From Chloroflexota bacterium (GTDB lineage: Bacteria > Chloroflexota > Anaerolineae > Anaerolineales > Villigracilaceae): a DNA stretch of 64,000 nt. This document shows positions 6,818-21,700 of the stretch, piece by piece. Positions within the stretch are counted from its first letter, which is position 1, and the number at the start of each line of letters is the position of its first letter. Under the pieces are notes generated by a model. The model did no database searches. It was not told the origin of the DNA and saw only the letters and a program-made list of their open reading frames with translations. The stretch covers positions 124,001 through 188,000 of the forward strand of contig JACPVF010000015.1 of the NCBI GenBank assembly GCA_016191845.1. Reading direction: 5' to 3'. A program made the translations under genes and the position numbers.

Positions 6818-6976
6818 CTAAATGACTCCCAACCAGTTCAGGATGATGAGAATGACGGCGATAACGAGCAGTGTGTGAATCCAACTGCCTGTTTGCGGGA
6901 AACTCGGGCTTATGTTCCGTCCAAATAAGCCAAGCAGCCACAGGATCAACAAAATTACTACGATAGTCCACAACAT
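6818..6976 (-). CDS. lmo0937-family small membrane protein
   Basis: 52 residues beginning MLWTIVVILLILWLLGLFG, with two transmembrane helices (1-19 and ~33-52) around a short polar loop. This matches the lmo0937 family, whose Listeria member belongs to a stress regulon; molecular function is unknown. AAAGGA precedes the ATG at 6976. Promoter repeat copy 1 lies about 100 bp upstream, which places this gene in the putative regulon. Confidence 0.75.
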   Translation of the reverse strand: MLWTIVVILLILWLLGLFGRNISPSFPQTGSWIHTLLVIAVILIILNWLGVI

Positions 6977-7075
6977 GATATTTTTCCTTTCAAGTACTTT
7001 GTCAATTTGGTGATGATGGTTTGAGTCGTCCTCGTTACAGGATACGGGGGCAATGGTCTGCATAGGGCCTGATTT

Positions 7076-7144
7076 AATCCTACAATAAACACTCCCCAGT
7101 TGCATCCATCGGACGGGGAGTGTCATTCTCCGCCACTTGGGGGA
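7076..7144 (-). promoter_or_regulatory. Composite promoter/dyad repeat, copy 1
   Basis: Read on the minus strand this holds a conserved box CCCCCAAGTGGCGGAG (7126-7144), a 9-bp inverted repeat ACACTCCCC/GGGGAGTGT (7089-7097 with 7115-7123) around a loop with GATGGATG, then 6 nt and a -10-like TAGGAT at 7082-7077. The same arrangement occurs at 9876, 13874 and 16444. The repeat faces the lmo0937-type gene at 6976. Confidence 0.6.
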
Positions 7145-7247
7145 TGCTGTATCAGAGTGTGGTACAGACCAATGGGATTCCGGCAAAGCCGCGAGAAGCC
7201 CCCAGACCGATCCCAATACCAACCCGGCTATGAGATCTCGACGGGTA

Positions 7248-7445
7248 GTGCGCGCTAACATAGATCCGTGTGAAACCGACTAGGGTGGCGACCAAATACA
7301 AGGCAGTGGATGTACCTGCCCCAGGCTGGAAGTGATGAATTAGAAGCCTAGGTTACGTAACCGCTGGGAAACGAGTCGCCTTTCGCCCGCAAAGGGCGGT
7401 GAAAGCCCGATTTTAGTTTGCGCGGCAGGCGCAACTGTGTGGTAC
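7248..7445 (+). ncRNA. Orphan structured RNA-like element (HEARO/omega-RNA-like or group II intron remnant)
   Basis: About 198 nt with many nested self-complementary segments on the plus strand: GGCAG...CTGCC, CCCAG...CTGGG enclosing AGGCT...AGCCT and GGTTACGTAACC, CGCCTTT...AAAGGGCG, GGGC...GCCC, and GTTTGCGC-GGCAG-GCGCAAC. Unpaired purine motifs GGGAAACGAG and GGTGAAAG sit between helices. The last loop GGCAG can also pair with the earlier CTGCC, suggesting a pseudoknot. It starts with GTGCG and contains GGAAGTGATGA, which recall group II intron domain I, but the layout also recalls IscB-associated HEARO/omega RNA. No IscB or reverse transcriptase ORF follows; the element stops 10 bp from the end of the convergent dehydrogenase gene. 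Confidence 0.4.
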
Positions 7446-7454
7446 TCCTTGCAT

Positions 7455-8501
7455 TTAGTCCGGGTTGGTAATGATCACCTTGAGCGCCTGCTCTTTCATC
7501 GCATTTCCAAATATGTCGTATGCAAACATCATTTGGTCCATATTAAAGTGGTGGGTGATCAATGCCTTTGGCTGGAGCTTTCCTGAAATCACGGTTCTTA
7601 AAAGCATGGAAGTGGTCGCAGTATCAACCAGACGGGTTGTAATTGTGATGTTTTGCGCCCAGAGTGTATTCAGATTCAATTGAACGGGTTTGCCATGTAC
7701 TCCGACGTTGGCAATATGCCCGCCGGCCGTGATGATAGTCTGGCAAATGTCGAAACTCGCTGGAATTCCAATGGCTTCGATGGCCACGTCTACGCCACGA
7801 TTGTCAGTCAGTGCCATGATTTTTTCAGCGGCATTGCCGAGATCATTGTGGATGGCCACCGTTGCCCCAAATTTCTTTGAAATCTCCAGCCGGTTGTCAT
7901 CGTTATCGACCATGATGATGACCGCCGGCGAATAGAACTGCGCTGTAAGTAGGATTGCCAACCCGATTGGGCCCGCCCCAATGATTGCCACTGTATCACC
8001 GGGTTTTATCTGCCCGTTCAACACGCCACATTCGAAGCCTGTTGGCAGGATGTCGCTCAACATCACCAGTGCCTCTTCGTCGGCCTTGTCCGGTATTGGA
8101 TACAGGCTGTTGTCCGCAAATGGGGTACGAACGTACTCAGCCTGGGTTCCGTCGATTAGATTTCCCAGAATCCAACCTCCGCCGTTTTCGCAGTGTGAGT
8201 ACATGCCCTTTTTACAATTGAGGCACCTTCCGCACGAACTTATGCACGAGATCAAGACATGGTCGCCCACGCTAAAATTGGAAACGCTTGCCCCCACCTG
8301 GTCTATAACACCCACACCTTCGTGCCCCAAGATCCGGCCATCTGTCACAGTTGGCACATCCCCTTTCAGAATATGCAAATCTGTCCCGCAAATGGTTGTC
8401 TTTGTGATCCTGACGATGGCATCTGTAGGTGCTTTGATTTTGGGTTTAGGCATATTTTCGAGGGCACGTTTGCCCGGGCCGTGATAGACGAGTGCCTTCA
8501 T
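7455..8501 (-). CDS. Zinc-dependent alcohol dehydrogenase (MDR family)
   Basis: 348 residues of the medium-chain dehydrogenase family. Catalytic zinc ligands are Cys38 (TTICGTDLH) and His60/Glu61 (GHEGVG). The structural zinc lobe is Cys90, Cys93, Cys96 and Cys104. The Rossmann motif IGAGPIG lies near residue 175 and ends in an acidic residue (MVDND), which suggests NAD rather than NADP. By family it oxidises or forms small alcohols; the substrate is unknown. It is followed by the convergent structured RNA element. Confidence 0.92.
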   Translation of the reverse strand: MKALVYHGPGKRALENMPKPKIKAPTDAIVRITKTTICGTDLHILKGDVPTVTDGRILGHEGVGVIDQVGASVSNFSVGDHVLISCISSCGRCLNCKKGMYSHCENGGGWILGNLIDGTQAEYVRTPFADNSLYPIPDKADEEALVMLSDILPTGFECGVLNGQIKPGDTVAIIGAGPIGLAILLTAQFYSPAVIIMVDNDDNRLEISKKFGATVAIHNDLGNAAEKIMALTDNRGVDVAIEAIGIPASFDICQTIITAGGHIANVGVHGKPVQLNLNTLWAQNITITTRLVDTATTSMLLRTVISGKLQPKALITHHFNMDQMMFAYDIFGNAMKEQALKVIITNPD

Positions 8502-8581
8502 GTTTTGTCTCCAGTTTATGATCGATTCACTATCTTCTTTGAGCTTGACATCAATGGATTGGGGTGATTTATTGCACCCGT

Positions 8582-9607
8582 CTAAGCACCGAAATTGCTA
8601 TTTGCAAAGAAGTCTTTTCTGAGTGATTCTGCCTCCGATGTCTTTGCAAACTGAAATGGGTGAGGACCATATATCGCTTGAGAATCTTCATCCCGGTGTT
8701 GAACAGGAAATAAAACCTCATTGAGGCAGTACGGATATGGCGGCACCCAGCTTTTCTGCGGGGCAATGAAATTGACGGGGTCAAAGTCGGTGTAGCGGTT
8801 TCTTTCATTCGTATTGATATGGAGGAAGCCTGAAACCTTGGTCAAATACCGAACCAAATCCATGGAAAGCACGATGAGCCGTTCCGGCGGCAGGGATTTG
8901 CCATTTTTCAGGGATTGCAGATCCTGCAACTGATCTGTAAATTGTCCCTGGGCAATCATAGCGATTACTCGACGATTGTTGGGGTCGATAATCACCTGCC
9001 GAACGATGCCCGAGATTCCATTAAGAAAAATGATCTCTCCACCTATGGTGGGCTGTAAATATGGCTGGTCTTGTAAAATCAATTTGCTTCCCCGAATGCA
9101 GATGCTGTTAATGACGCCACGAACATTGGGATTGTCAGAGGCACACTTTTCTGCCAGCAATCTCACCTTCACATCGCTGACCTTTCCGCTAATAAATACC
9201 ACCCCATGCGAAACGCCTGTGAAAAACTTGCAATTATCCATGTGTTCCAAGAACCCTAATGAGGTTGCCACTTCCGCTAAAAGGCGGTCATCCAGAATCA
9301 GATGACTGACAACGCCATGCAGGCCGGGGATGATTTGAAGCGCCTTTTCGGCCTGATGCTGGCTGGACATGCTGCTGATATGACCATACAGATGCGCAAA
9401 TCCACCAAGCACCTGTACATCGATGTGCGCATAATCCCTAGCTCTAAAGACAGAATCTGCCCATAATACGCGATCGATTTCATACGCTAGGGCTACATCT
9501 CCCGCGGAATTTTTGGCAGGATTCTTTTGCTCTTCCTCTGCTAGGCTTGAATTTTCGCATCTGAATAATACATCTGGATCGGTTCGTGGGGTTGGTAATG
9601 GGAGCAT
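8582..9607 (-). CDS. BON-domain protein with PRC-barrel-like segment
   Basis: 341 residues, no signal peptide. Two BON-like repeats are visible (VDVQVLGGFAHLYGHISSM...HQAEKALQIIPGLHGVVSHL, then HGVVFISGKVSDVKVRLLAEK...GVINSICIRG). A PRC-barrel-like stretch follows (GEIIFLNGISGIVRQVIIDPNNRRV). BON domains bind membranes or phospholipids and occur in osmotic-stress proteins. In this position it is probably a cytoplasmic stress protein, but the exact role is unknown. Confidence 0.75.
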   Translation of the reverse strand: MLPLPTPRTDPDVLFRCENSSLAEEEQKNPAKNSAGDVALAYEIDRVLWADSVFRARDYAHIDVQVLGGFAHLYGHISSMSSQHQAEKALQIIPGLHGVVSHLILDDRLLAEVATSLGFLEHMDNCKFFTGVSHGVVFISGKVSDVKVRLLAEKCASDNPNVRGVINSICIRGSKLILQDQPYLQPTIGGEIIFLNGISGIVRQVIIDPNNRRVIAMIAQGQFTDQLQDLQSLKNGKSLPPERLIVLSMDLVRYLTKVSGFLHINTNERNRYTDFDPVNFIAPQKSWVPPYPYCLNEVLFPVQHRDEDSQAIYGPHPFQFAKTSEAESLRKDFFANSNFGA

Positions 9608-9682
9608 GTATATATCCTCATTGGGGACCTGAAAAGAGAAGGCACCTTTTCGATTCTCCCTTGGTCACTGGGAGCGTTGAAA

Positions 9683-9832
9683 CTAGCGGTTCAATAAAAT
9701 GAAGACACCGGCCGCGATGGCAAGCAGCGCCAGGATGACGGACAGACCACCCATCGAGATGAATGCGGAAAGTCCTGTGAGAATAAGCCAGATGCCCAAC
9801 AACAGAAAACCCATGTTTCTATTGAATTTCAT
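9683..9832 (-). CDS. Small two-helix membrane protein
   Basis: 49 residues, MKFNRNMGFLLLGIWLILTG then LSAFISMGGLSVILALLAIA, ending LLNR. Two hydrophobic helices are joined by a short Ser/Gly turn. AAAGGAG is seven bases before the ATG at 9832. Promoter repeat copy 2 ends about 45 bp upstream. Function unknown; similar tiny membrane proteins are common in envelope-stress regulons. Confidence 0.65.
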   Translation of the reverse strand: MKFNRNMGFLLLGIWLILTGLSAFISMGGLSVILALLAIAAGVFILLNR

Positions 9833-9875
9833 GGTGATACTCCTTTCTTGTATTGGTAAAGAATCGGTCTCTCTT

Positions 9876-9944
9876 TATCCTACGATGAACACTCCCCAAC
9901 CGTATCCATCGCTAGGAGAGTGTGGTTCTCCGCCACTTGGGGGA
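9876..9944 (-). promoter_or_regulatory. Composite promoter/dyad repeat, copy 2
   Basis: Same geometry as copy 1. The minus strand reads the box CCCCCAAGTGGCGGAG (9926-9944), arms at 9915-9923 and 9889-9897 with one mismatch, a loop containing GATGGATA, 6 nt, then TAGGAT at 9882-9877. It faces the 49-residue membrane protein gene, giving a leader of about 40 nt. Confidence 0.6.
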
Positions 9945-10016
9945 GACGAATATGAAACTCTAAGAAAATACCATTGTCTGACCAGGCCGGTTTTTGGTTA
10001 CGGAGAACCTTAATGT

Positions 10017-11435
10017 TTATGTTAATTGCCGAAGATTTCCCAACGCGGCTTCAATTTCTTCGAGGGTAACCGCCTGTCCATCCGCAATGTGCTTAAGTGT
10101 GCCGTTTTTTACTTTTTCTACCGCAATGGCGTGAATCGTCAGGCCGCGCGCTGCCGCTTCCTTGACCAATTCCGTGCCCCGACTGTAGCCGATCAGCGGA
10201 TTTAGTGCAGTGACCACAATCGTGTTCTGAGCCAGCCAGCCTTCAGCCTTTGCTCGATTTGCAGTGATGCCACGGACCGCCCGTTCCGTGAATGCACGCA
10301 CCGCACCAATCGTGATCTGCATCATCTCGAAAAGATTGTAGGCAATGACCGGCATCATCACGTTCAATTCGAGTTGCCCCGCCTGGACCGCCAGAGCTAT
10401 CGTTGTATCACAACCGACCACTTGGAACATGACCATATCCAGCATTTCCGCCATAACCGGGTTAACCTTGCCGGGCATGATGCTGGAACCAGGCTGGACC
10501 GCCGGTAAACGGATTTCGTCCAGCCCTGTGGCGGGTCCCGAGGAAAGCAGACGAAAATCATTGGCAATGCGGATGAGGGTCAGGGCCAGAGTCCGTATCG
10601 AAGCTGAAAAGGCTGCTGCATCCGCCATCGATTGCATTGACTCGAATAAATTGTCCGACTCAAGCAGTTGGAGGCCGGTAATTTCAGCCAACTTTATTAT
10701 CATTCGATGATGATATTCGGGGTGGGCATTCAGCCCGGAGCCGACGGCGGTTCCGCCGGTCCCCAGCCGTCTCAAGCTCTCGCCTGCCTGACGGATCCGC
10801 TCCGCATCCCGCTCGACGGCCCTGGCATACGCGCCAAACTCCTGCCCCAGGCGTATCGGGACGGCATCCTGCAAGTGTGTCCGACCCGATTTGACGATGG
10901 TATCGAATTCGCCGGCTTTGATATTCAACGCGGAGGTCAGATCGTTTAGTATGCCGAGAAGCTCATCCAATCGCCATAGGCAGCCCAGACGAATGGCGGT
11001 CGGGATGGTGTCGTTGGTGGATTGGGCCATATTAACATGGTCATTTGGGTGAACACGGTATTCCCCCAAGGTTCCATGCAGGAGCTGGGTAGCGCGATTG
11101 GCGATGACTTCATTGGCATTCATGTGATGACTGGTACCCGCACCAGCCTGGAATGGATCGACTACAAATTGATCGTTCCACTTCCCATCGATCACTTCTT
11201 GCGCAGCCTGGACGATGGCAGCGGCCTTTTCCGCATCGAGCAGCCCCAGGTCCCGGTTGACTTCCGCGGCGGCTCTTTTGATCACGCCCATCGACCAAAT
11301 ATAAACCCACCGAGGCTTCAATCCGGAGATGGGAAAGTTTTCGACCGCGCGCTGGGTTTGCGCACCGTACAATGCATCTGTCGGGACAAGGACTTCACCG
11401 AGCGAGTCATGTTCTATCCTGAGGGGAAGGGTCAT
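10017..11435 (-). CDS. Class II fumarase/aspartase-family lyase
   Basis: 472 residues of the fumarase C/aspartate ammonia-lyase superfamily. Visible family motifs are SLGEVLVPTDALYGAQTQRA at the N-terminus, GRTHLQDAVPIRLGQEF in the middle and the signature GSSIMPGKVNPV. The protein therefore removes water or ammonia from a dicarboxylic acid to give fumarate. QTQRAVENFPISG favours fumarase, while AQSTNDTIPT is intermediate, so I leave the substrate open. Length is normal for both. It is a lone metabolic gene between small stress genes. Confidence 0.88.
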   Translation of the reverse strand: MTLPLRIEHDSLGEVLVPTDALYGAQTQRAVENFPISGLKPRWVYIWSMGVIKRAAAEVNRDLGLLDAEKAAAIVQAAQEVIDGKWNDQFVVDPFQAGAGTSHHMNANEVIANRATQLLHGTLGEYRVHPNDHVNMAQSTNDTIPTAIRLGCLWRLDELLGILNDLTSALNIKAGEFDTIVKSGRTHLQDAVPIRLGQEFGAYARAVERDAERIRQAGESLRRLGTGGTAVGSGLNAHPEYHHRMIIKLAEITGLQLLESDNLFESMQSMADAAAFSASIRTLALTLIRIANDFRLLSSGPATGLDEIRLPAVQPGSSIMPGKVNPVMAEMLDMVMFQVVGCDTTIALAVQAGQLELNVMMPVIAYNLFEMMQITIGAVRAFTERAVRGITANRAKAEGWLAQNTIVVTALNPLIGYSRGTELVKEAAARGLTIHAIAVEKVKNGTLKHIADGQAVTLEEIEAALGNLRQLT

Positions 11436-11663
11436 GTATTACTCCAAAAGAACGGACGAAAGGGAATTCAAATCAATTGTTGAATTGTTAATTTCAACAA
11501 TCTTGCCGCCCTCACCTCCCACCAATCCCAGCACCTTGAAAATTCATCGGGGTTTATTCTGGGTATTTGTGCTAGGGACATTTTAGTTCCTTTAATTTTC
11601 AAGAACGAAAGGATTGTCGTTTTAGAGTACCTAGATGGCTCCATCCTTCCTATGCGGCTTTAG

Positions 11664-11972
11664 TTACCTGCTCCAGTTGTGCTCGATGACGAGCACTTGA
11701 CCGCGCCTCGTCAAATCATCAGATTTTTTGCGCCCGTTTATGCTGATTTTGTTACGATCTGCGCGCAACTGCCTAATAGAGTCATCGACCATTTCGGCAG
11801 CGCGGTCGCGTAGTTCGAGACTTTTTTTCTGGATTTGTGTCCTGGTTCTTTTTCCAGATTGCGGTGCAAGCAATAGTATCGTAACGGTCCCGGCCAGACC
11901 ACCGATCAGTATTCCGGCTAAGATGCCGGCGATATTGATGATGGGATACTTGTGTTCTTGAGCTTCATTCAT
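11664..11972 (-). CDS. YtxH-domain protein
   Basis: 102 residues from MNEAQEHKYPI (an upstream ATG at 12023 would add 17 residues; neither has a clear ribosome site). One Gly-rich transmembrane helix (IAGILAGILIGGLAGTVTILL) is followed by LAPQSGKRTRTQIQKK, the YtxH hallmark, then a charged helix. YtxH proteins are membrane-anchored general stress proteins of unknown mechanism. Confidence 0.8.
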   Translation of the reverse strand: MNEAQEHKYPIINIAGILAGILIGGLAGTVTILLLAPQSGKRTRTQIQKKSLELRDRAAEMVDDSIRQLRADRNKISINGRKKSDDLTRRGQVLVIEHNWSR

Positions 11973-12050
11973 CCTGGCGGATCCCTTTTCTGCTTCCATG
12001 CAGATATTTGCTGTGATTGTCATGTCCTCGACATGGGTGAAATTACCTGT

Positions 12051-12230
12051 TCAGGAATTTACCTTGTCATGCTGATCGTCAAGATAAAGACCTGCTTCCT
12101 TCTGTTCTTCTTCCGTCAACCAAATCAACCCGACCAACCACTTTTGAATATCATCCAAAATTTGCAGGCTTACCAACAAATGGACAGATGGTTGTGTATT
12201 TGATTCTGGGTGACGGAAAGAGTCTTTCAT
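12051..12230 (-). CDS. Small acidic helical protein, 59 aa
   Basis: Start MKDSFRHPESNTQPSVHLLV at 12230 with AGAGG upstream. The ATG is 14 bp after the stop of the YggT-family gene, so the two are probably coexpressed. An amphipathic helix (SLQILDDIQKWLVGLIWL) precedes an acidic tail (TEEEQKEAGLYLDD). No family recognised. Confidence 0.5.
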   Translation of the reverse strand: MKDSFRHPESNTQPSVHLLVSLQILDDIQKWLVGLIWLTEEEQKEAGLYLDDQHDKVNS

Positions 12231-12244
12231 TTTGCCTCTTTGTT

Positions 12245-12661
12245 CTATGGTGTGGTGTGATGGTCTTCGCTGGTGGTGGTTTCTGTGATAGCCACAACCG
12301 GACCATGCGGGCGGTAAAAGACCAGCCAGACCACTCTTTCCACGGCCCATGCAGTCAGGGCGTAGACCAACATTGCAAACAAGGAGGACAGTTCAAGCAC
12401 AAAGTTGCCGTACACCGGCGAGCCGATCAAGCCTGTAAAGGGGAACAGGAACAGATAAGTAACCCCATAGATGAGGGCAACGATCGGGCTGCTGGGGTTG
12501 GCTCCGACCAGCATCAACCCGATCCGAAGTGCGATCAGGGCTTCGAGGATACCGAATGCAAGCCAGATTAATTGGGTAGCTTTGAAACTGAAGATGCGTT
12601 GTTCCCGTTCAGGCTCGTTCTGTGATGTTCTAACTTCTGATACTCTATTGGCGTTTGACAT
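12245..12661 (-). CDS. YggT-family membrane protein
   Basis: 138 residues from MSNANRVSEVRTS; GAAGG lies five bases before the ATG at 12661. The segment FGILEALIALRIGLMLVGAN, then VYGNFVLELSSLFAMLVYAL, matches the YggT pattern of paired helices. A central pair of helices and a final one (AVERVVWLVF) give about four spans. YggT proteins are linked to osmotic or envelope stress and protein assembly. The inverted repeat at 12721-12772 lies in its leader. Confidence 0.7.
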   Translation of the reverse strand: MSNANRVSEVRTSQNEPEREQRIFSFKATQLIWLAFGILEALIALRIGLMLVGANPSSPIVALIYGVTYLFLFPFTGLIGSPVYGNFVLELSSLFAMLVYALTAWAVERVVWLVFYRPHGPVVAITETTTSEDHHTTP

Positions 12662-12720
12662 TTCAACCTTCTTTTCGATCAGGAGTCTGGACCTAGGGCC
12701 GCCTCCTTTATAAGCCTCGT

Positions 12721-12772
12721 AGGCCGGTTGTTCCACGCCACTCTCTAAAGAATAGGGTAGTTCAACCGGCCT
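12721..12772. repeat. 10-bp inverted repeat in YggT leader
   Basis: AGGCCGGTTG (12721-12730) and CAACCGGCCT (12763-12772) are a perfect 10-bp inverted repeat with a 32-nt loop, between the end of the GlsB gene and the YggT-family start. No T-tract follows, so it is more likely an operator or leader structure than a terminator. Confidence 0.5.
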
Positions 12773-12796
12773 GGGTGCGAGTTGGAGTATTGATGA

Positions 12797-13069
12797 TTAA
12801 GCCGAGCGGAAACGTCTCCCACGGAAGATATTGACAATCGCCAACAGGGCAATGGATCCGATCAGGGTGACTACCAAGGTCGGAATGGTAATAGCATCAT
12901 TGATTGTCCCGATTCCGACCATGGGACTGATGAAGTAGCCGGCCAGAAATGCGCCGATCACACCGACCACGATATCGAGCAGCAGACCCTGCTGAGAGTT
13001 CGTGCGCATGATACGGCTGGCAATGTAGCCAACAATCGCGCCAGCGATGAGGTAAATAATGAGGTTCAT
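12797..13069 (-). CDS. GlsB/YeaQ/YmgE-family stress membrane protein
   Basis: 90 residues from MNLIIYLIAGAIVGYIASRI, with AAAAGGAAAAG upstream of the ATG at 13069. Three hydrophobic spans and the Gly-rich motif LLLDIVVGVIGAFLAGYFI are typical of transglycosylase-associated (GlsB/YeaQ) proteins, which are induced by general stress. Located between CsbD and YggT genes, it belongs to the stress island. Confidence 0.85.
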   Translation of the reverse strand: MNLIIYLIAGAIVGYIASRIMRTNSQQGLLLDIVVGVIGAFLAGYFISPMVGIGTINDAITIPTLVVTLIGSIALLAIVNIFRGRRFRSA

Positions 13070-13148
13070 TTTTCTTTTCCTTTTGAATATGACTGATATA
13101 CGATCCAAGACGCATGCTGCAAAGGAGCAAGGGGCAGCATTACGGTGG

Positions 13149-13391
13149 TCATTTAACTACGGGAGTGGGCGCGGTTTTCCTGTTTAGGTTGGCCTCAAAT
13201 TCCGTGACGCGCTTATTGATCTCATCGGTTGCGCGCTCACGGGTATAGCCATACTTTTCCTGAAGCAGGCCGGCAAGAACTTCGATCTTGCCAGCCGCGC
13301 GGTCCAGGTCGTCGTCGGTGAGTTTGCCCCACCACGCCTTGGCCTCGCCGCGGATTTGTTTCCACTTGCCTTCGACAATATCCTTGTTCAT
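13149..13391 (-). CDS. CsbD-family stress protein
   Basis: 80 residues, MNKDIVEGKWKQIRGEAKAW then WGKLTDDDLDRAAGKIEVLA, the full CsbD signature. GGAGGATC lies before the ATG at 13391. CsbD proteins are small soluble helical proteins of the general stress response, controlled by sigma B in Bacillus. Function unproven. Confidence 0.92.
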   Translation of the reverse strand: MNKDIVEGKWKQIRGEAKAWWGKLTDDDLDRAAGKIEVLAGLLQEKYGYTRERATDEINKRVTEFEANLNRKTAPTPVVK

Positions 13392-13498
13392 GATTTTGAT
13401 CCTCCAGATCGTTTGAAAAGGCCATCCCATTTGTGCCGGCGCTCGGGACAGCCTTGGCGCGCCGGGTTTTGTGTCGCCCACTCAGTCGGGTGGCGTCA

Positions 13499-13867
13499 TC
13501 AAGGATGAAGACTTTTGGCTACGGCCCGCAAATGTTCGGCCACACGGTCTGGCGTCTCGCCTTTACTGATAAACGCGTCGGCGCCGATCGAGAGCGCAGC
13601 TTGATGACGGGCGTCCAGATGACTGATGAGGATGATGACCAGCGCAGCCGGGCATGCCTTTCGAAGCTGATCCAGCGCCGCGCCAGGGTCCTTGGGAAGC
13701 AGATTCCAATCGATCAGCAACATGTCTGTGCGCTTGACTGGCGCTTGTGCCAGCGTGGTCGCCCAGTCGGCTGCCTCTCCGACCACTTCCATCTTCAGGT
13801 CGAGGAGGACAAGGCGAAGGGCGAAACGTTCTTCAATCGTGGCATCGGCTAGATATACGCGGGTCAT
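13499..13867 (-). CDS. Stand-alone response regulator receiver protein
   Basis: 122 residues consisting only of a receiver-like domain: MTRVYLADATIEERFALRLV, the likely phosphoacceptor Asp in MLLIDWNLLP, and the conserved Lys in FISKGE. The first acidic pair is reduced to a single Asp (LADAT), so phosphorylation chemistry may be altered. There is no output domain, so it would act by protein contact. Its ATG lies only a few bases after the -10 of promoter repeat copy 3, implying a leaderless or very short-leader mRNA. Confidence 0.8.
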   Translation of the reverse strand: MTRVYLADATIEERFALRLVLLDLKMEVVGEAADWATTLAQAPVKRTDMLLIDWNLLPKDPGAALDQLRKACPAALVIILISHLDARHQAALSIGADAFISKGETPDRVAEHLRAVAKSLHP

Positions 13868-13873
13868 ACATTC

Positions 13874-13941
13874 ATCCTACAACAAACATTCCCTTGTCGC
13901 ATCCAACAACAGGGGAATGTTTCTATCCGCCACTTGGGGGA
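13874..13941 (-). promoter_or_regulatory. Composite promoter/dyad repeat, copy 3
   Basis: The box CCCCCAAGTGGCGGA (13926-13941 on the minus strand), arms ACATTCCC/GGGAATGT (13886-13893, 13913-13920), 6 nt and TAGGAT (13879-13874). The arms differ from copies 1 and 2 at paired positions, so pairing is kept. TAGGAT lies 4 nt before the TGT-ATG start region of the receiver gene, which fixes the repeat as upstream promoter DNA rather than a transcribed leader. Confidence 0.6.
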
Positions 13942-13988
13942 GAATTTCACATCGAATGTGGTTGACATTTGGATTAAGGGGAGGATGT

Positions 13989-14360
13989 CTACGACAAACC
14001 TGGCAAACATCCGATCGTTGTTTTGAGTGGTTTAGTGTTTTGTCGCAGTGTTCGGCGTTCCTGCACCTGCTGTTCTACCTCGTCCAGGACGCTGACCAGT
14101 GTGGAGTGAAACTGTTCGCCTTTTTCGGTGATGGTAACGTGGTCCAATCCCATATTGAGGGTGACTGTCACTTCATATATCGACTGCATGTGGGGAACTT
14201 TGGCAGGTTGCTTCAAATTAACCACCCCACTAACAATATCGTTGTGACCTTCCGCCAGTTTGTTGAGACGATCCACACAAAGGGTATAGTATTCGTTTCC
14301 ACTTTTTATGACTTCATCAATCTCGTTGTTGAACTCGATGGGAAGATTGCCTCTATCCAT
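13989..14360 (-). CDS. HPF/RaiA-like ribosome-associated protein (tentative)
   Basis: 123 residues, MDRGNLPIEFNNEIDEVIKS. The pattern (IEFNNE, a helix YYTLCVDRLNKLAEGHNDIV, the strand SGVVNLKQ, the strand IYEVTVTLNM, then helix FHSTLVSVLDEVEQQVQERR) follows the beta-alpha-beta-beta-beta-alpha order of ribosome hibernation factors. Identity is low and no single diagnostic residue is visible, so this is a fold-level guess. In a stress island a ribosome-silencing role would fit. Confidence 0.45.
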   Translation of the reverse strand: MDRGNLPIEFNNEIDEVIKSGNEYYTLCVDRLNKLAEGHNDIVSGVVNLKQPAKVPHMQSIYEVTVTLNMGLDHVTITEKGEQFHSTLVSVLDEVEQQVQERRTLRQNTKPLKTTIGCLPGLS

Positions 14361-14439
14361 CTTATATCTCCTGAATTCTCATGTGGCTTTTGAATTTTAT
14401 GGACGCCATCGTCATGTCGTTCCTGGAATTCCAGTTCCA

Positions 14440-14801
14440 TCAGGTTGCTTCGTAAAGTGTCTTATGGTAGCAGGACAGGCGCGCATGCTGATCATCACTC
14501 GCGCAAACAAGCCACCGCGCGTTTTGGGATTGCCCAGATGGGGCATACCCTTGCCATCGTCCGCTTTTTCGCCGCCACTGCTGGTATTGGGTGCGCGGTT
14601 CATCATATTTCCTGCGCTTTTTCGGGTCCGATAGAATCTGGTATGCGTCATTGAGCGTCTTGATTTTTTTCCCCGCTTCCTTGTTTCCCGGGTTTGGGTT
14701 CGGGTGGTGTTTGCGCGCGAACTGACGATCGGTTTCCTTGATAACCTTCTTATCGGTGGCTGGCGTACACCGAGGATTTCATAATAATCTTTGAATTCTA
14801 T
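14440..14801 (-). pseudogene. DnaJ J-domain pseudogene
   Basis: Reading from 14801 gives IEFKDYYEILGV, the usual start of a DnaJ/CbpA J-domain, but the first codon is ATA where ATG is expected. A one-base deletion after GGTGT (near 14767) then shifts frame to TPATDKKVIKETDRQFARKH, HPNPNPGNKEA and LNDAYQILSDPKKRRKYDE. The essential HPD motif is HPN. The frame ends at a stop near 14440. Lost start, frameshift and lost catalytic Asp together indicate decay rather than one sequencing error. Confidence 0.7.
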
Positions 14802-14812
14802 TGGGTGTCATC

Positions 14813-15298
14813 TTATTCAGTGTTTTTTCTGAGCCAATGTTTTTGTTTCCAGGCTTCCCCATATCTGGGCTCTGGCCAGTATTCTCCGGGAACAAAGTCT
14901 GAACATTCCACGGGATAAATGCGCCCACCTCGCTCGGGTTGCGACCATCCGAATTCGATCTCACGGTCACAGCTTGCACAATTCACATAAAATTCGTCTC
15001 CCTCCGTATCGTCCTCCTGTTCATAGGTTTCGTACTCTTCAGGTTCAGAATCGGAGTCATCTTCTGTAAACTCACCGAAGTCCCCACGTTCCACTCCCTC
15101 CTCCTCTTCTTCATCAGTTTCTATCTTTTCCTTGTAGATGAAGTGCCAGAGATGGTCAGCATCGAGTGGCCCCCATTCCTGCCAGCTTTCAGTGGCAGGC
15201 CCAGCCAGGACGGTCCACACGTGAGTGACGGTCAAGGAATGGCCGTTGCATGCTTTACAGGTAAATTCCCAGGGGCGATTATCTTTCATGGCATTCAT
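14813..15298 (-). CDS. Hypothetical protein with split zinc ribbon and acidic middle
   Basis: 161 residues. Cys14-x2-Cys17 near the N-terminus and Cys107-x2-Cys110 near the C-terminus could together bind one zinc. Residues ~60-100 are almost entirely Asp/Glu (TDEEEEEGVERGDFGEFTED) and probably form a flexible insert in the ribbon domain. No family recognised. It lies 11 bp upstream of the DnaJ remnant in the same direction, so it may once have formed a chaperone-related pair. Confidence 0.65.
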   Translation of the reverse strand: MNAMKDNRPWEFTCKACNGHSLTVTHVWTVLAGPATESWQEWGPLDADHLWHFIYKEKIETDEEEEEGVERGDFGEFTEDDSDSEPEEYETYEQEDDTEGDEFYVNCASCDREIEFGWSQPERGGRIYPVECSDFVPGEYWPEPRYGEAWKQKHWLRKNTE

Positions 15299-15372
15299 AG
15301 TATGTTCCTTCTCGTAACCAGACTAGACTGTCATACCGCAATCCAAGGTGGAGCATCGGCGTCAGTGGATCA

Positions 15373-16293
15373 TTAAAGCGCCATGACTACCCGGCCGCGC
15401 CCCTCATGTTTGGCGCGGTAAAGCGCGGCATCGGCGGATCTCAGAATTGCATCATGTGCAGAGCCATGCTCGGGGAAGACCGCCACACCGATTGAAAGTG
15501 AAGTTGTCTTTAGATCCTGCCCCTCAAACTGGAAGTGGAGCTTTTTAGCAGATTTGCAAATCCGTTCAGCCCGTTCCCTGGTCACTTCCCGAGAGGCATC
15601 GGGTAGTACAACCGTGAATTCATCGCCGCCATAACGGCAGGCAATGTCCTCCTCGCGGACATGTTCTTGTAACAATCTGCCTACTGCACGCAGAAGCGCG
15701 TCCCCGGCGGCGTGACCGTAAGTATCATTGATGCGCTTGAGATTATCCACATCGAGCATGATGATACCCAGTGGAAGTTTTTTTCGGATAGCTCGATGCA
15801 ACTCGCGTTCCAGGGTCTCCTCCATGTAACGGCGATTGAATAACCCGGTCAGATGGTCACGGACAGATTGTTCCCGTAGCAGTGCTTCGCTTTTGAGCAG
15901 CGCCGCCTGCGCCTGCTTCCGCTCTGTGATGTCGCGGATATTGCATTGGATGGTCTTTTCGTTGCCCGCCATATAAACATTGCTGACAAACTCCACCTGG
16001 ATCAGCCGTCCATCTTTTGAACGGAGCGGCAGGTCTTCGTAGCGAATGTAATTATTCTTTTGCAAGGCTTCGAAAGCCTCCTGGCTGGCCTTGACATCCC
16101 TGAATGCGCCGACCTCCCAAAGCTTTTTTTCGATAAACTCTGCGTGAGAATACCCCAGCATGTCCATCAGGAACGGGTTGACATCGGTAATCATCCCTGT
16201 GTCTGCATTTAAAATCAAGATCCCATCCTGTGCGGCTTCGAACAGACGGCGGTAACGAAGTTCCGAGGTTCTTATATAATTATCATTACCCAT
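15373..16293 (-). CDS. PAS-GGDEF diguanylate cyclase
   Basis: 306 residues from MGNDNYIRTSELRYRR, with AGGAAGG upstream of the ATG at 16293. A PAS domain (YRRLFEAAQDGILILNADTG...GYSHAEFIEKKLWEVG) with its C-terminal motif (IQCNIRDITERKQAQ) precedes a complete GGDEF domain (DHLTGLFNRRYME, then RYGGDEFTVVLP). REED five residues before GGDEF is the product-inhibition site RxxD. The enzyme should make cyclic di-GMP from GTP in response to a PAS-bound signal. Promoter repeat copy 4 lies upstream with a leader of about 145 nt. Confidence 0.92.
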   Translation of the reverse strand: MGNDNYIRTSELRYRRLFEAAQDGILILNADTGMITDVNPFLMDMLGYSHAEFIEKKLWEVGAFRDVKASQEAFEALQKNNYIRYEDLPLRSKDGRLIQVEFVSNVYMAGNEKTIQCNIRDITERKQAQAALLKSEALLREQSVRDHLTGLFNRRYMEETLERELHRAIRKKLPLGIIMLDVDNLKRINDTYGHAAGDALLRAVGRLLQEHVREEDIACRYGGDEFTVVLPDASREVTRERAERICKSAKKLHFQFEGQDLKTTSLSIGVAVFPEHGSAHDAILRSADAALYRAKHEGRGRVVMAL

Positions 16294-16443
16294 ATCTACC
16301 TTCCTGTTGTACAAGCTGAAAATTGCATCTATCTTTCCTTGTGCAGAAAAAACGTTCGCAATTACAGTACTGTCAAATTTCAAGTATCGGATTGTTATTT
16401 CCATGCAACAAGTAATAAATATACAAAGAGACACCGTCACTTA

Positions 16444-16511
16444 ATTTTATAAAAAACACCCCCCGATCACATCCATCGGACGGGGGGTGTTTTTCTCCAC
16501 CACTTGGGGGA
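16444..16511 (-). promoter_or_regulatory. Composite promoter/dyad repeat, copy 4
   Basis: Box CCCCCAAGTGGTGGAG (around 16493-16511 on the minus strand), 10-bp arms ACACCCCCCG/CGGGGGGTGT (16456-16465, 16481-16490), the same 6-nt spacer, and TAAAAT at 16449-16444 in the -10 position. It lies after the stop of the NarL-type regulator and faces the PAS-GGDEF gene. The stem flanked by A and T runs may also terminate the upstream operon. Confidence 0.6.
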
Positions 16512-16519
16512 GGTGGATA

Positions 16520-17167
16520 TTAGGGAATGATGTGATTACGCAGTGCCAGCGTCACGGCTTCGGTACGGCTGGCCGCTCCCAATTTGGACAGGATGCTGCT
16601 GACATGGGATTTGATCGTGGATGGGCTGACGGTCAGCTTTGCGGCGATCTGTGTATTATTCAGCCCCTCGATCATCAGGGCCAGCACCTCACGCTCTCGC
16701 TCGGTCAGGTCCAAACCGGGGGCGGGCGCTTGGTTGGCTGCCTGAACGAGAACCTGCGCCGCCTCGGGCGAAAGAGAGGCACGCCCAGCATGAGCAGCGC
16801 GGATGGCCTGAACCAGATCGTCCGCAGAGACATCTTTAAGTAAATAGCCAATTGCCCCGGCTTCCAGGGCGTTCTTGATCAATGTCCTCTCTTTGAAACT
16901 GGTTACGGCAATGATCTGTACTTGTGGAAACCGTTGGCGGATGACACGCGTTGCCGTCGCGCCGTCCATATCTGGCATAACCATATCCATGAGGATCACG
17001 TCCGGTAAAACTTCTTCGCAGAGTCGAATGGCAGCCGCGCCACTTCCGGTCTCGCCTGCCAGTTGCAGGTCATCGAATGCCATCAGGAAAGCCGCCAATC
17101 CCCGGCGGACCATGGTGTGATCGTCAACCAACATGACGCGAATGGGTTCGGAAGGAGACGTTTTCAT
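16520..17167 (-). CDS. NarL-type response regulator
   Basis: 215 residues. Receiver domain with acidic pair (VMLVDDHTMVRRG), phosphoacceptor Asp in VILMDMVMPDMDG and Lys in YLLKD; a LuxR-type helix-turn-helix follows (LTEREREVLALMIEGLNNTQ, then SPSTIKSHVSSILSKLG). It overlaps the kinase gene by 4 bp, so the two form a cognate pair. Targets are unknown; the large glucan synthase operon directly upstream is a candidate. Confidence 0.95.
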   Translation of the reverse strand: MKTSPSEPIRVMLVDDHTMVRRGLAAFLMAFDDLQLAGETGSGAAAIRLCEEVLPDVILMDMVMPDMDGATATRVIRQRFPQVQIIAVTSFKERTLIKNALEAGAIGYLLKDVSADDLVQAIRAAHAGRASLSPEAAQVLVQAANQAPAPGLDLTEREREVLALMIEGLNNTQIAAKLTVSPSTIKSHVSSILSKLGAASRTEAVTLALRNHIIP

Positions 17168-18738
17168 CCGGCCTCCTTTTTTTCCGTTTTCCTCCAGCGG
17201 AGGGTGAGTTCCGTGCCGTGCCCTGGCTGGCTGGTGATAGATAAGAATATGCCCGCAGTTTCCGCGCGTTCGCGCATCATGCCCAAACCATAGTGACCGG
17301 AGGGGCTCAGTTCAGTAGTGACAAACCCGCGCCCATTATCACGCAGGTTCAATTCGATGGAGGATTCGTTGTGTTTCAGTACGATTTCTACCTTGCTGGC
17401 TTCGGCATGTTTGGCAACATTATTCAGTGCTTCCTGGCAGATGCGGTAGATTGCCACCTGCACCTCAGTGGGAAGGATGCCTTCTCCCTCTATCGTTACC
17501 TTGGCCGGAATATTTGTGCGCCCGGTGAATGCATTTCCCAACAGGCACAGGAGATCCCCCAGTTCGGCGTCGGTCAGGGTGGAGGGCCGAAGCTCGGCCA
17601 GCAAGGCACGCATTTCTGCCATGGCGCCGCGTGTCAATTTACGCAAGTCTTCGAGCGATTGCCGTGCCAGATCCTGGTCGCGGTCCCATAGGCGCGGCAG
17701 GACTTCGGCGATTAGCCCTGCTGAGAAGAGTGATTGGTTGACGGCATCATGCAAGTTGCGTGCTAGGCGCTGCCTTTCCTCCAATACCGCCAACTCCTGC
17801 GCGTGTTTATAGAGTTCCGCATTGATCATGGTGATGGCAGCCTGGTTGGCTACACTGAGCGCCAAGTCGGCATGATGGGGCGTGAAGTAATTTTGCTTCT
17901 CATGTGCCACTCCCAGGCCACCGATAATACGACTCTTGACCGCCAACGGCACCCACATCCATGACCGCATCCCAGCAAGCAACGCGGCCGATCCATCGTC
18001 TAGAAGCGAACGCAAAAACTGCGCTTGCGGTTCATCACTCCACGCGTTGGCAATGCAAATGGGGCGATGCTCATTGAATAATATGGTCAGGGTCTGCGCG
18101 CTTTGCAGATGGATATGAAATGGCGAGGACTGCTCCAATTCCGGTGTGCCGCGCATCGCCAGACTGACAAGTGTAGAGTCTTCCAATGTAAACAGCCCGC
18201 CACGTGTATATTCAACGATCTCGCGCAGTTGATCAAGGATCAACCCCGGTTGAAATTCCAACGTGGAAGCGAGAGTGTGCGAGATCTCCAGCAATTTGAC
18301 CTGTTCACGGTTGCGGGTTTCGACACGCTGGTGGAGATTTTGCTCCGCCTGGATGCTCCGGGTCACATCCTGCACCACACCCAGCAAGCAGGCTCGACCC
18401 TGATAGTCGAACCCGGTTCCGCTCCATTCAGCCTGAAACGTGGAACCATCCCGTCGCAGGTGCGGAACCTGTGTATCGAATACCTTCCCCGAGCGAAACG
18501 AGCGCATGTATTCCAGAAATGACGGCCAACTATTAGGGTGGATGAAGGCGGTCATGTTCAATCCGATGAATTCTTCATGGCTGTAGCCGTGCATGTTACA
18601 CGCCGCAGGATTCGCCTCGACAACGAAATGGGTCTCCAAGTCACTTAGAATTAACCCGTCCGTGGCGGCCTCGAAGATCTTCAAATACAGGCGTTGATCG
18701 GTCGTAATGGTGGTTTTCGTCATAGATTCTAATTTCAT
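17164..18738 (-). CDS. PAS-GAF sensor histidine kinase (NarX/HisKA_3 type)
   Basis: 524 residues, soluble. A PAS domain (~15-135, ending LGVVQDVTRSIQAEQ), then a GAF domain (~165-310), then HisKA_3 with the phosphorylated His in RLARNLHDAVNQSL, then a HATPase domain with LRDNGRGF and GLGMMRERAE. This is the usual Chloroflexota soluble kinase layout, sensing a ligand or redox state through PAS/GAF. MTKTT at 18723 is an alternative start. The stop overlaps the response regulator start. Confidence 0.93.
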   Translation of the reverse strand: MKLESMTKTTITTDQRLYLKIFEAATDGLILSDLETHFVVEANPAACNMHGYSHEEFIGLNMTAFIHPNSWPSFLEYMRSFRSGKVFDTQVPHLRRDGSTFQAEWSGTGFDYQGRACLLGVVQDVTRSIQAEQNLHQRVETRNREQVKLLEISHTLASTLEFQPGLILDQLREIVEYTRGGLFTLEDSTLVSLAMRGTPELEQSSPFHIHLQSAQTLTILFNEHRPICIANAWSDEPQAQFLRSLLDDGSAALLAGMRSWMWVPLAVKSRIIGGLGVAHEKQNYFTPHHADLALSVANQAAITMINAELYKHAQELAVLEERQRLARNLHDAVNQSLFSAGLIAEVLPRLWDRDQDLARQSLEDLRKLTRGAMAEMRALLAELRPSTLTDAELGDLLCLLGNAFTGRTNIPAKVTIEGEGILPTEVQVAIYRICQEALNNVAKHAEASKVEIVLKHNESSIELNLRDNGRGFVTTELSPSGHYGLGMMRERAETAGIFLSITSQPGHGTELTLRWRKTEKKEAG

Positions 18739-18759: not shown

Positions 18760-21700
18760 TTATCCCATCACGATCCGCACTTCGTGGGGATGTCCATCAT
18801 CCACAAGCGGGACTCGGTTGTTTACGACTATCTGTTCATCGAGCAGAATCTGTTGGATGCCACAGTTTACGTGGCGCGGATTCTGCACATCGATCCTGTA
18901 CTGGGTGCTTCCAAACCGGTAATTCACTTTGTAGCCCGGCCAATGGCGCGGAATGCACGGATCGAATTCGAGCGCCTGCCCTGCTTTTTTGATTCCCAGA
19001 ATGATTTCGATGCCCAGGCGATACATCCAACCGGAGGAGCCGCTGTACCAGGTCCAACCGCCGCGGCCGAGGTGGGCAGGAGCGCTGTAAATATCCGCCG
19101 CGACCACATAGGGCTCCACTTGATAACGTGCCACCTTCTGTGGGGTATCCGCATGTTGAATGGGGTTGATTAGTTGATAAAGTTCAAAAACACGGTCTCC
19201 GTCACCCAGTTTGGCGAAGGCCCAGATCGCCCAGATCGCGGCATGGGTGTATTGTCCGCCGTTCTCCCGAATGCCGGGCTGGTAGCCCTTGATGTAACCC
19301 GGGTCGCGAATCGTCCGGTCGAAAGGCGGCGCCAATAGCAGGATCAAACCATCCTCGCGGCGGACGAGGCGTTCGTAAAGCGACTGCATGGCGGCACGTG
19401 CACGTCCGTGCTCGGCCGCACCTGAGATGACCGCCCACGATTGGCTGATCGAGTCGATCTGGCAATCGCGATTTTCCGCGGAGCCGAGCGGCTTGCCGTC
19501 ATCGTAAAAGGCACGGCGATACCAACTCCCATCCCAAGCGAAAGTCTCGAGGGCAAGGCGCAACGTCTCGGCCTGCTGACGATAGGAGGCGGCTTGCTCG
19601 GCAGACCCGTCCCCGTCACATAAACGCGCGAAGTCTGCCAGCGTGGCATGCAGGAACCAGCCCAGCCAGATGCTCTCCCCCGTCCCGCCCGTGCCGACGT
19701 TGTTCATGCCGTCGTTCCAATCGCCTTCGCCCATCAGCGGCAGGCCATGCGGACCGGCCGTGGTTCCCTTGGCGAGTGCACGGCGACAATGCTCATAGAG
19801 CGACTCTGTCTCGCCGTAGGGGAAATCTCCGTAGCGGTCATGTTCCCCGACCTTGAGCGGCTCGGCTGCAAGGAAGGGGACGCGCTCCTCTAAAATGGCG
19901 CGGTCACCAGTGATGTGGACATATTGTGCCACGGTATATGGAAGCCAGAGCAGGTCATCGCTAATGCGCGTGCGGACGCCGCGGTCGGCGGGCCGCGCAA
20001 CGTGCCACCAATGCAACACGTCGCCCTGCTCGAACTGATGGCGGGCTGCGCGCAGAATGTGTTCGCGCGCGATCGCAGGCCGGGTATACAGGAATGCCAG
20101 CACATCCTGAAGTTGGTCGCGGAAGCCGTACGCGCCACCCGATTGATAGAAAGCCGTCCGTCCCCAAATGCGGCAGGACAAGGTTTGATACGGAAGCCAG
20201 CGGTTGAGCAAAATATCCATGGCCGCGTCGGGCGTTTCGACCTGGATGTCTTTGAGCTTGTCATCCCAAAATGACTGAAGCACATCCCAGGCTGCCTCGA
20301 CATTAGTCATGTTCTGATACTGCGTGATGAGCTTGAGCGCCTCGGCATGATCCGCACCCTGCCCGAGCAGGAATGTGACTTCCTTCGTTTCACCGGGCGC
20401 GAGCCAAAGCAGGAGTTGCATGGCCGCGCACGGATCGGCTCCCGCCTGCGCCAGAGCGGTCAGCCCGACCCGTTCGAGCGCGGCCGGATGGGCGTAACTT
20501 CCCAGCGAGCCGAGGAATTCGGTGCGGTCGGTCGTCAGCCCCTGGAGTTCGCGCGTGGCGGCCAGGAAGGCGACGCGCTCGCTAAAGTCCCGGTTGTAGG
20601 GATTACGCGCCAGCATGGCAAAACGCTCGGACGCGTATTCGGGGACGATATACTGTGCCATCTCCTCGTGCGTGGTACCCAACACCCACTCGGCATAATA
20701 CGTGATGTTGATGCGCCGCGTGCGAGCCGACGTGTTTTGCAATTTCAACTGCACGATCTTAACCGGCGCGTCAGGCACGGCAAAGAGGCGCAGGCGTTGT
20801 TCCACCTCATGACTGCGGTGCTCGAAAATGGTGTAGCCTGTTCCATGGCGGATGGTGTACGGCGCATCGGCGCGTGTCGGCAATGGTGTGGGCGACCAGA
20901 GTTCACCAGTGTCTTCGTCGCGCAGATAAATGGCTTCGCTTGGCGGGTCACTAACGGGGTCATTGTGCCAGGGGGTGAGACGGTTTTCGCCGCTGTTGCC
21001 AGCCCAGGTACAGCCCAGCCCTGCCTCGGAGACCAGGAACCCAAACTCGGGGTTGGCGATCACGTTGATCCACGGCGCGGGAGTCCACTGGCCGCGGGCG
21101 AGGTGGATGATATATTCGCGTCCGTCCGGGCTGAAACCGCCCAGCCCATTATCGAAGACTAGGCCGGGGCGGGATCCAAGCAAAGGAATTGAGGACGGCT
21201 CTGAAAGCGGAGACTGGGTCGGGACAAAACGCGGCAATCGGACGGGGAGGCGATCCAGCTTCTCCAATTGAGTCGCCAACGGGCCGGCCTCTCCTTCCAA
21301 TGTTACACGAGCGGCGGTGGCGATGAGAATCCGCTCGGCCACCGACATCTGGTCTTCGCGCAGTACGAAAATCCCGCCGCGTTTGCCCAAGCGGTCATCG
21401 CTGTTGGTACGGCTGAGCAGATGATAAATTTTTCCATGAAAATGCTGGTCGTAACTGGTCTCACGCTGGTTAAGGATGACGAGGTCGATCTTCAATCCAC
21501 GCCGGTGCCAGTAGGTGTGGGCACGGATCAACTCGCTCAGCAGGTCGAGGTCTTTTTCCTGCTTGAGGTTGATCAGCAAAATCGGATAATCGCCCGAGAT
21601 GGAAAAGGCCCATAAGCCAGATTGTCCCAGCGTGTTGCCTGCCAGGGTGACCGGGTCGGAGCGCAGTGCTGGAGCGGGATAGAGCAAGGCGGAAAGAAGT

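Follow-up and report, generated by a model that had tools for sequence, protein, structure and literature searches.

A putative composite promoter element of a stress and signalling regulon in the Anaerolineales, probably served by a NarL/LuxR-type response regulator

A composite DNA element is described here which occurs in four copies in a stretch of 64,000 nucleotides (positions 124,001 to 188,000 of contig JACPVF010000015.1, hereafter the window) from a Chloroflexota bacterium of the order Anaerolineales. Each copy holds a 16-bp box, a dyad and a -10 hexamer, and all four face minus-strand genes. Judged by comparative sequence analysis, the element is quite likely the composite promoter of a stress and signalling regulon of the Anaerolineales, controlled through the box by a response regulator (RR) of the NarL/LuxR type encoded next to copy 4. 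The anatomy of box, dyad and -10, the linkage and coevolution of regulator and box, the probable leaderless starts and the content of the regulon are the parts of this proposal that the compared sequences support.

Results

Anatomy of the element

A repeat search of the window grouped the four copies into one family, on the minus strand and in the places given by an earlier note on this DNA. Their full spans of 74 columns are 7074-7147, 9874-9947, 13871-13944 and 16441-16514. In the alignment the box occupies columns 4-19, the dyad columns 25-59 with the loop in columns 38-46, and the -10 columns 66-71. The box, previously described as 15-16 nt long, measures 16 bp and could be refined to a 7-2-7 inverted repeat, TCCCCCA-NN-TGGCGGA. 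It is found at 7129-7144 in copy 1 (TCCCCCAAGTGGCGGA, 7-2-7), 9929-9944 in copy 2, 13926-13941 in copy 3 and 16496-16511 in copy 4 (TCCCCCAAGTGGTGGA), all on the minus strand, as are the other parts of the copies.

The dyads are located at 7089-7123 (copy 1, loop GATGGATGC), 9889-9923 (copy 2), 13886-13920 (copy 3, ACATTCCC../..GGGAATGT) and 16456-16490 (copy 4, ACACCCCCC../..GGGGGGTGT). The 9-bp inverted repeat with a loop that had been noted earlier was present, and 9 bp are clearly paired in copy 1; across relatives the family frame has 13-bp arms, pairing columns 25-37 with 47-59. Stem changes are compensated across the four copies as proposed, with the exception of a single T-G mismatch within the outer 9 bp of copy 2 (ACACTCTCC/GGGGAGTGT). 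The statement that only box, loop and -10 are fixed was slightly too strong, since a CCCC/GGGG core of the dyad is also conserved in clade A, the larger of the two clades distinguished below. The distance from the end of the stem to the -10 is 6 nt in all four copies, exactly as had been reported. The -10 reads TAGGAT in copies 1 (7077-7082), 2 (9877-9882) and 3 (13874-13879), and TAAAAT in copy 4 (16444-16449).

The composite pattern of box, 20-22 nt and GGATG was exact in three of the four copies, copy 2 having GGATA, and 100 shuffles of the window yielded no match. With zero mismatches, the box pattern TCCNCCAAGTGGNGGA occurred four times in the 4.63-Mb genome, all inside this island. No Rfam match was obtained for the element.

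Distribution and regulon content

A search for further copies had been set beforehand as a test of the regulon, and its outcome was divided: no fifth copy was found in the own genome by the models R1 and R2, whose filters can lose weak matches, whereas relatives carried the element widely. Model R1, built from the four window copies, found matches in 27 of 61 genomes at E ≤ 1, and the strong matches were mostly from the same family and often clustered on one contig strand. From 72 matches, four duplicates from overlapping loci were removed (leaving 68) and 11 of a length other than 74 were left out; the remaining 57 ungapped copies gave model R2. This model matched 99 of 400 genomes of the order Anaerolineales at E ≤ 0.01 and, in a sample across the phylum, 7 of 301 genomes at E ≤ 1e-6, six of these in the order. 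A scan of named genomes returned at least 119 stretches, and among the 80 matches listed all were records of Anaerolineales, Anaerolineae or other Chloroflexota except two contigs titled Bacteroidetes. The element on contigs titled Bacteroidetes bacterium CROMO_A_64 (L124, L181, L213) is probably due to mislabelling or wrong binning. In 247 loci, a scan with column weights detected 236 distinct copies above threshold, and none in reversed sequence.

The first genes behind 220 copies, called by a simple script, formed 66 clusters, which were named mostly by eye, the members from the window being scanned with Pfam. Clusters named stress or signalling contained 116 of the 220 genes. The largest were receiver-only proteins with CsbD (n = 43), DUF5670/lmo0937 (n = 23) and PAS-GGDEF (n = 21), and a further 29 genes belonged to the smaller clusters GlsB (n = 8), UspA (n = 6), CBS, dodecin and DUF3597 (n = 5 each). 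The remaining first genes included lipoproteins, and 42 of the 220 were singletons.

Promoter and transcription start

The -10 of the 236 copies is TAnnAT, with T at 0.94 in position 1, A at 0.96 in position 2, A at 0.88 in position 5 and T at 0.97 in position 6, while positions 3 and 4 vary. Of the 229 copies that have 60 nt of DNA behind them, 57 show an ATG that begins exactly 6 nt behind the last T of the -10. Each other offset from 0 to 15 was seen in 1-7 copies except offset 2 (n = 19), where the excess is at least partly the first ATG of GAATGTATG. Counted by hand, 37 of the 57 ATGs at offset 6 open a receiver-only gene of at least 110 codons (MTRVYLADA and alike). A second ATG peak at 28 nt (33 copies) was discarded, being mostly an out-of-frame ATG inside the receiver gene.

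In the window the receiver gene lies behind copy 3 (13499-13867, minus strand). Its ATG, said earlier to follow the -10 by a few bases, does so after exactly 6 nt, and the start predicted from the -10 of copy 3 falls on this ATG at 13867. Receiver genes with this spacing are probably leaderless, provided that the start is the A of the ATG. Because the ATG stands exactly 6 nt after the -10 in so many copies, the element probably lies upstream of transcription, and the leaderless genes oppose a transcription start before the dyad. Many other targets, for example most DUF5670 genes, are preceded by a ribosome site and begin 34-37 nt downstream of the -10; in the window this gap measures about 100 nt. 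A sigma-70 site (TTGACA-like -35 at 16-18 nt from the -10) was not called in any of the four window elements. One of them (copy 4) was called terminator-like; the conserved loop, box and -10 are not features of a terminator. The earlier proposal of an operator plus promoter of a regulon, that is, of DNA upstream of transcription, is favoured by the 236 copies, the 116 stress or signalling genes, the classic -10 and the 57 ATGs at 6 nt.

The proposed regulator and its coevolution with the box

The proposed regulator is the NarL/LuxR-type RR (Response_reg and GerE domains) encoded at 16520-17167 on the minus strand, and 8 bases separate its stop codon from the box of copy 4. Its gene overlaps by 4 bases that of a PAS-GAF-HisKA_3-HATPase histidine kinase (17164-18738, minus strand), the proposed sensor. 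Compared with solved chains the RR was closest to VraR, followed by ChrA, DevR and NarL. The traits of the NarL/LuxR type are present: a receiver with a GerE helix-turn-helix (HTH), an adjoining HisKA_3 kinase and 7-2-7 boxes at the targets (boxes A and B).

In the set of 61 genomes, an RR of at least 69% identity is present in 13, the own genome included, and in every one of them the element adjoins the RR, two of these elements being weak (G011, E 0.067; G051, E 0.019). Among the 400 genomes, all 43 with an RR at E ≤ 1e-89 carry the element (42 at E ≤ 1e-10 and one at 2e-10), and a strong element (E ≤ 1e-10) occurs in 15 of the 357 genomes without such an RR (Fisher p 6e-43, though genomes are not independent). 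The RR at 16520-17167 is thus probably the regulator of the element, an assignment that appears strong by comparative standards.

A second clade of regulators, clade B, shows mostly 58-68% identity and has Phe in place of Ser/Thr in the motif ST-x-K-[S/F]-HV of the recognition helix, a position which we take to be a DNA contact in NarL. Behind many of the Phe regulators another box was found, box B (CTGGTCA-NN-TGACCAG or close), often overlapping the RR stop codon and followed, as in clade A, by a dyad with a GATG loop and then TAnnnT. Box B is located 23-24 bp further upstream than box A. Among 71 RR genes with readable downstream DNA, Ser occurred with box A in 30 and with box B in none, Thr with box A in 3 and likewise with box B in none, and Phe with box B in 25 and with box A in none; 13 gave no call, 7 of them with Phe. 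RR matches were omitted from the set if the C-terminus was incomplete, the helix motif missing, the DNA around the stop shorter than 130 nt, or the DNA identical to that of another; calls of box B allowed up to 4 mismatches, 12 of the 25 having 0 or 1. In genome G331 the two regulators coexist, each next to the box of its own type. Copies of the B type away from the regulator gene were detected in G041, G331, G244/G274 and G292. With R3, the model of clade B, matches to many clade A copies are confined to about its positions 43-97, which cover the dyad and -10 but leave out the box, so that the two are separate modules. In several clade B elements (L248 and others) an extra ACTCTCC-like word lies between box and dyad, possibly a further half-site.

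Covariation in the dyad

For the 13-bp stem, 57 copies gave 67 double-change cells against 24.5 when shuffled and 11-20 in slid registers; 11 copies of clade B gave 20 against 6.1. The column pairs 27-57, 26-58 and 29-55 ranked top among all pairs. When arms were shuffled within genomes (225 copies, 46 genomes), pairs were in excess (z = +11.2), and G-T (z = -6.7), A-C (z = -7.0) and other mismatches (z = -9.3) were depleted. This pairing far above the within-genome shuffles indicates that the symmetry belongs to each copy and does not stem from a genome-wide half-site preference.

An RNA helix should spare G-U. In clade A the ratio of observed to expected mismatches was 0.73 for G-T, 0.75 for A-C and 0.71 for others (236 copies), and the G-T share of G-T plus A-C was 0.475 compared to 0.479 in the within-genome shuffles. 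A control of tRNAs from the same genomes displayed 21 G-U and 0 A-C in 28 tRNAs, these being the ones with 21 bracketed pairs among 47 distinct tRNAs from a finder that biases toward pairing. As G-T is avoided as much as A-C, the clade A dyad favours DNA, in the form of a hairpin or of an arm-equalising mutational process, over the behaviour of an RNA helix. The sequence trait of an N4-like hairpin is present, the stem bases being variable yet complementary and the loop conserved. In clade B even the core is replaced symmetrically, e.g. CTCTTCTG with CAGAAGAG in G194.

Two further arguments from structure were given up. The box as an RNA hairpin with covarying flanks (columns 1-3 and 20-22) showed a weak excess (23 double-change cells against 15.6 shuffled, reached by 8 of 500 shuffles) and was given no weight. 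Cruciform geometry by itself lent no support to extrusion either: by our own arithmetic extrusion would put box A at about -31 but box B at about -54, which is not the same place.

Genes behind the copies in the window

Copy 1 heads a DUF5670-CBS group (CBS named by eye), beginning with an lmo0937-like small membrane protein (Pfam DUF5670; 6818-6976, minus strand). Copy 2 is followed by the gene of a 49-aa membrane-like protein without a Pfam match (9683-9832, minus strand), a BON-domain gene (8582-9607) and, third, an alcohol dehydrogenase-like gene (7455-8501, named by eye). The receiver gene of copy 3 is followed by CsbD (13149-13393) and a Transgly_assoc/GlsB-like gene (12797-13069), and copy 4 by a PAS-GGDEF gene (15373-16293, minus strand). 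Just upstream of copy 3, the gene at 13989-14360 (minus strand) gave a weak match to Ribosomal_S30AE, a ribosome hibernation factor family (20.7 bits, below the cut-off of 23.7). Beside the kinase gene, an open reading frame (ORF) of 2848 aa (18760-27306, minus strand) looks like a cyclic beta-glucan synthase/phosphorylase, named by eye. At three loci (L173 4231, L143 3416, L074 7785; 0-based) a short leaderless ORF behind the element is receiver-like at its start and soon stops; these ORFs look as if element and gene start had been duplicated together and the gene had then decayed.

Discussion

The working of the element may be depicted as follows. The sensor kinase (17164-18738) would phosphorylate the RR, a dimer of which would bind the 7-2-7 box, centred approximately 66 bp upstream of the start (approximately 89 bp in the sister clade), and activate RNA polymerase at a promoter with a good -10 (TAnnAT) and no consensus -35. 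The place of the -35 would be taken by the 35-bp inverted repeat, centred at -36, with its conserved loop and a GATG starting 24 nt before the -10. Its arms may be kept complementary at the level of DNA, whether the repeat serves as a core element able to form a hairpin or cruciform or as a symmetric site for a protein. In this scheme we infer the phosphorelay, activation rather than repression, the DNA binding itself and the role of the dyad. A bolder version, in which a DNA hairpin that negative supercoiling extrudes stands in for the -35 and the stress regulon is gated jointly by the box-bound RR and DNA torsion, is speculative and seems unlikely. Beyond the earlier note, the analysis adds the probable regulator, its co-occurrence and apparent coevolution with the box, and a clade A dyad that seems unlike an RNA helix.

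Several observations weigh against the proposed scheme. In the 236 copies, conservation of the box is weaker in its right half than in its left. An RR at E ≤ 1e-76 is missing from 11 of the 57 strong-element genomes (several of the 11 are incomplete), and at looser cut-offs (element ≤ 0.01, RR ≤ 1e-76) the two occur together in 63 genomes, with just the element in 36 and just the RR in 20 (clade A model). Another regulator may serve the element where the RR is missing. Both RR clades are old, so that the association of Ser or Phe with box type amounts to little more than a single evolutionary event and the case of G331. The four-mismatch level used for box B is also reached by 6.4% of shuffled regions, few B copies lie away from the RR gene, some of these with 2-3 mismatches, and one B-like box (G043) is at clade A spacing. 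Coding constraint may help to keep box B through its overlap with the RR stop codon. Finally, in 17 copies of clade B, selected for 9 or more of the 13 pairs, G-T numbered 20 against 24.1 expected, A-C 10 against 15.1 and other mismatches 9 against 37.4; in this small set (ratios 0.83, 0.66 and 0.24) transitions are spared and G-T leads.

This lean to G-T would suit an RNA element, in which the transcript would begin upstream of the box, and the hairpin, alone or together with a small box hairpin, would act as a cis-regulatory leader, attenuator or terminator. A covarying stem with a conserved loop, the T-rich stretch 3' of the stem, the terminator-like call of copy 4 and the single-strand folding shuffle z-scores of the four copies (-1.3, -2.7, -2.7 and -4.1, the best fold of copy 2 not being this dyad) point in the same direction. 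Clade A, however, has no wobble preference, unlike the tRNA control with its bias toward pairing, Rfam holds no match, and the ATG 6 nt after the -10 in many copies is too close for a Shine-Dalgarno sequence outside the -10 itself. Insulation by a terminator was addressed by upstream direction: the 24 copies whose closest upstream ORF runs on the opposite strand have a mean of 9.4 (median 9) of 13 pairs, much like the 168 copies elsewhere (mean 9.8, median 11), a comparison of little weight with crude ORF calls and several false 'divergent' ones. An RNA element seems improbable. Still harder to credit is a mobile repeat (like repetitive extragenic palindromes, REP, or miniature inverted-repeat transposable elements, MITE) lying before genes by chance. 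Many copies with box and hairpin, some before an apparent broken receiver-gene start as if the module had spread by duplication, would agree with it, but not the fixed -10 and start, the recurring target genes and the tie to the RR, and no viral contig holds the exact composite pattern.

The two remaining alternatives keep the element as DNA. In one, which deserves consideration though it seems the lesser prospect, a second dimeric protein binds the dyad, centred at -36 over the -35 position, and the arms are kept alike by template-switch correction of quasi-palindromes and not by selection for pairing. Template switching homogenises inverted-repeat arms in yeast and occurs at quasipalindromes in E. 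coli, according to the available parts of PMC8604942 and PMC7202029, and the CCCC/GGGG core is conserved in clade A. A sequence-reading dimer should not tolerate the symmetric replacement of even the core in clade B, and no such protein was identified. In the other, which we regard as unlikely, GATG-N20-TAnnnT would be recognised by a sigma factor of its own, with the box as an activator site upstream of it. The start of GATG precedes that of the -10 by 24 nt in 10 of 10 clade B copies and in the ungapped clade A alignment (23-25 in a few odd-length copies, by eye), and a sigma-70 -35 is lacking; on the other hand, the covarying arms are left unexplained and the -10 resembles that of the housekeeping sigma factor, no search for a candidate factor having been made. 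The RR-controlled promoter is therefore preferred here.

If this promoter is confirmed, the Anaerolineales, here known almost only from metagenome-assembled genomes, would be assigned a stress regulon with regulator, operator, promoter and starts, and its targets could be found in any genome. The dyad poses a puzzle of its own, as two promoter arms are complementary copy by copy, yet the larger clade bears no RNA signature. The earlier note had called the regulon undescribed, and in titles and abstract beginnings of the open-access literature no description of such an element or of an Anaerolineales stress regulon was found.

The closest known systems are the following. Inverted heptamers in 7-2-7 arrangement are preferred sites of NarL, and an engineered NarL site is TACCCCTAAAGGGGTA (available part of PMC4549865). 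NarL-type regulators (E. coli NarL, with VraR and DevR as further near relatives of solved structure) are alike in the receiver with LuxR-type HTH, the HisKA_3 kinase and heptamers 2 bp apart. The element differs from theirs in its heptamer sequences, in the coupling of the box, which lies at about -66 or -89, with a covarying dyad at -36, in a stress regulon largely confined to one order and in a probably leaderless receiver gene. SigB of Firmicutes and DosR/DevR of mycobacteria govern comparable targets (lmo0937-like, CsbD, dodecin, universal stress and CBS proteins). Compared with these stress regulons, the one proposed here would need no alternative sigma factor and has a different operator in a different phylum. 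At the promoters of the phage N4 virion RNA polymerase, the variable bases of the stem count only through their pairing, in a DNA hairpin driven by supercoiling (available part of PMC4496689). The inverted repeat with a variable yet paired stem is shared, here read from sequence alone. If DNA hairpin extrusion were true of the Anaerolineales element, cellular promoters would share a mechanism for which a phage polymerase is the best-known case, with the difference that the N4 hairpins, in the same source, are centred at -11 and used by a phage polymerase, whereas the dyad described here is at -36 of an apparently ordinary cellular promoter.

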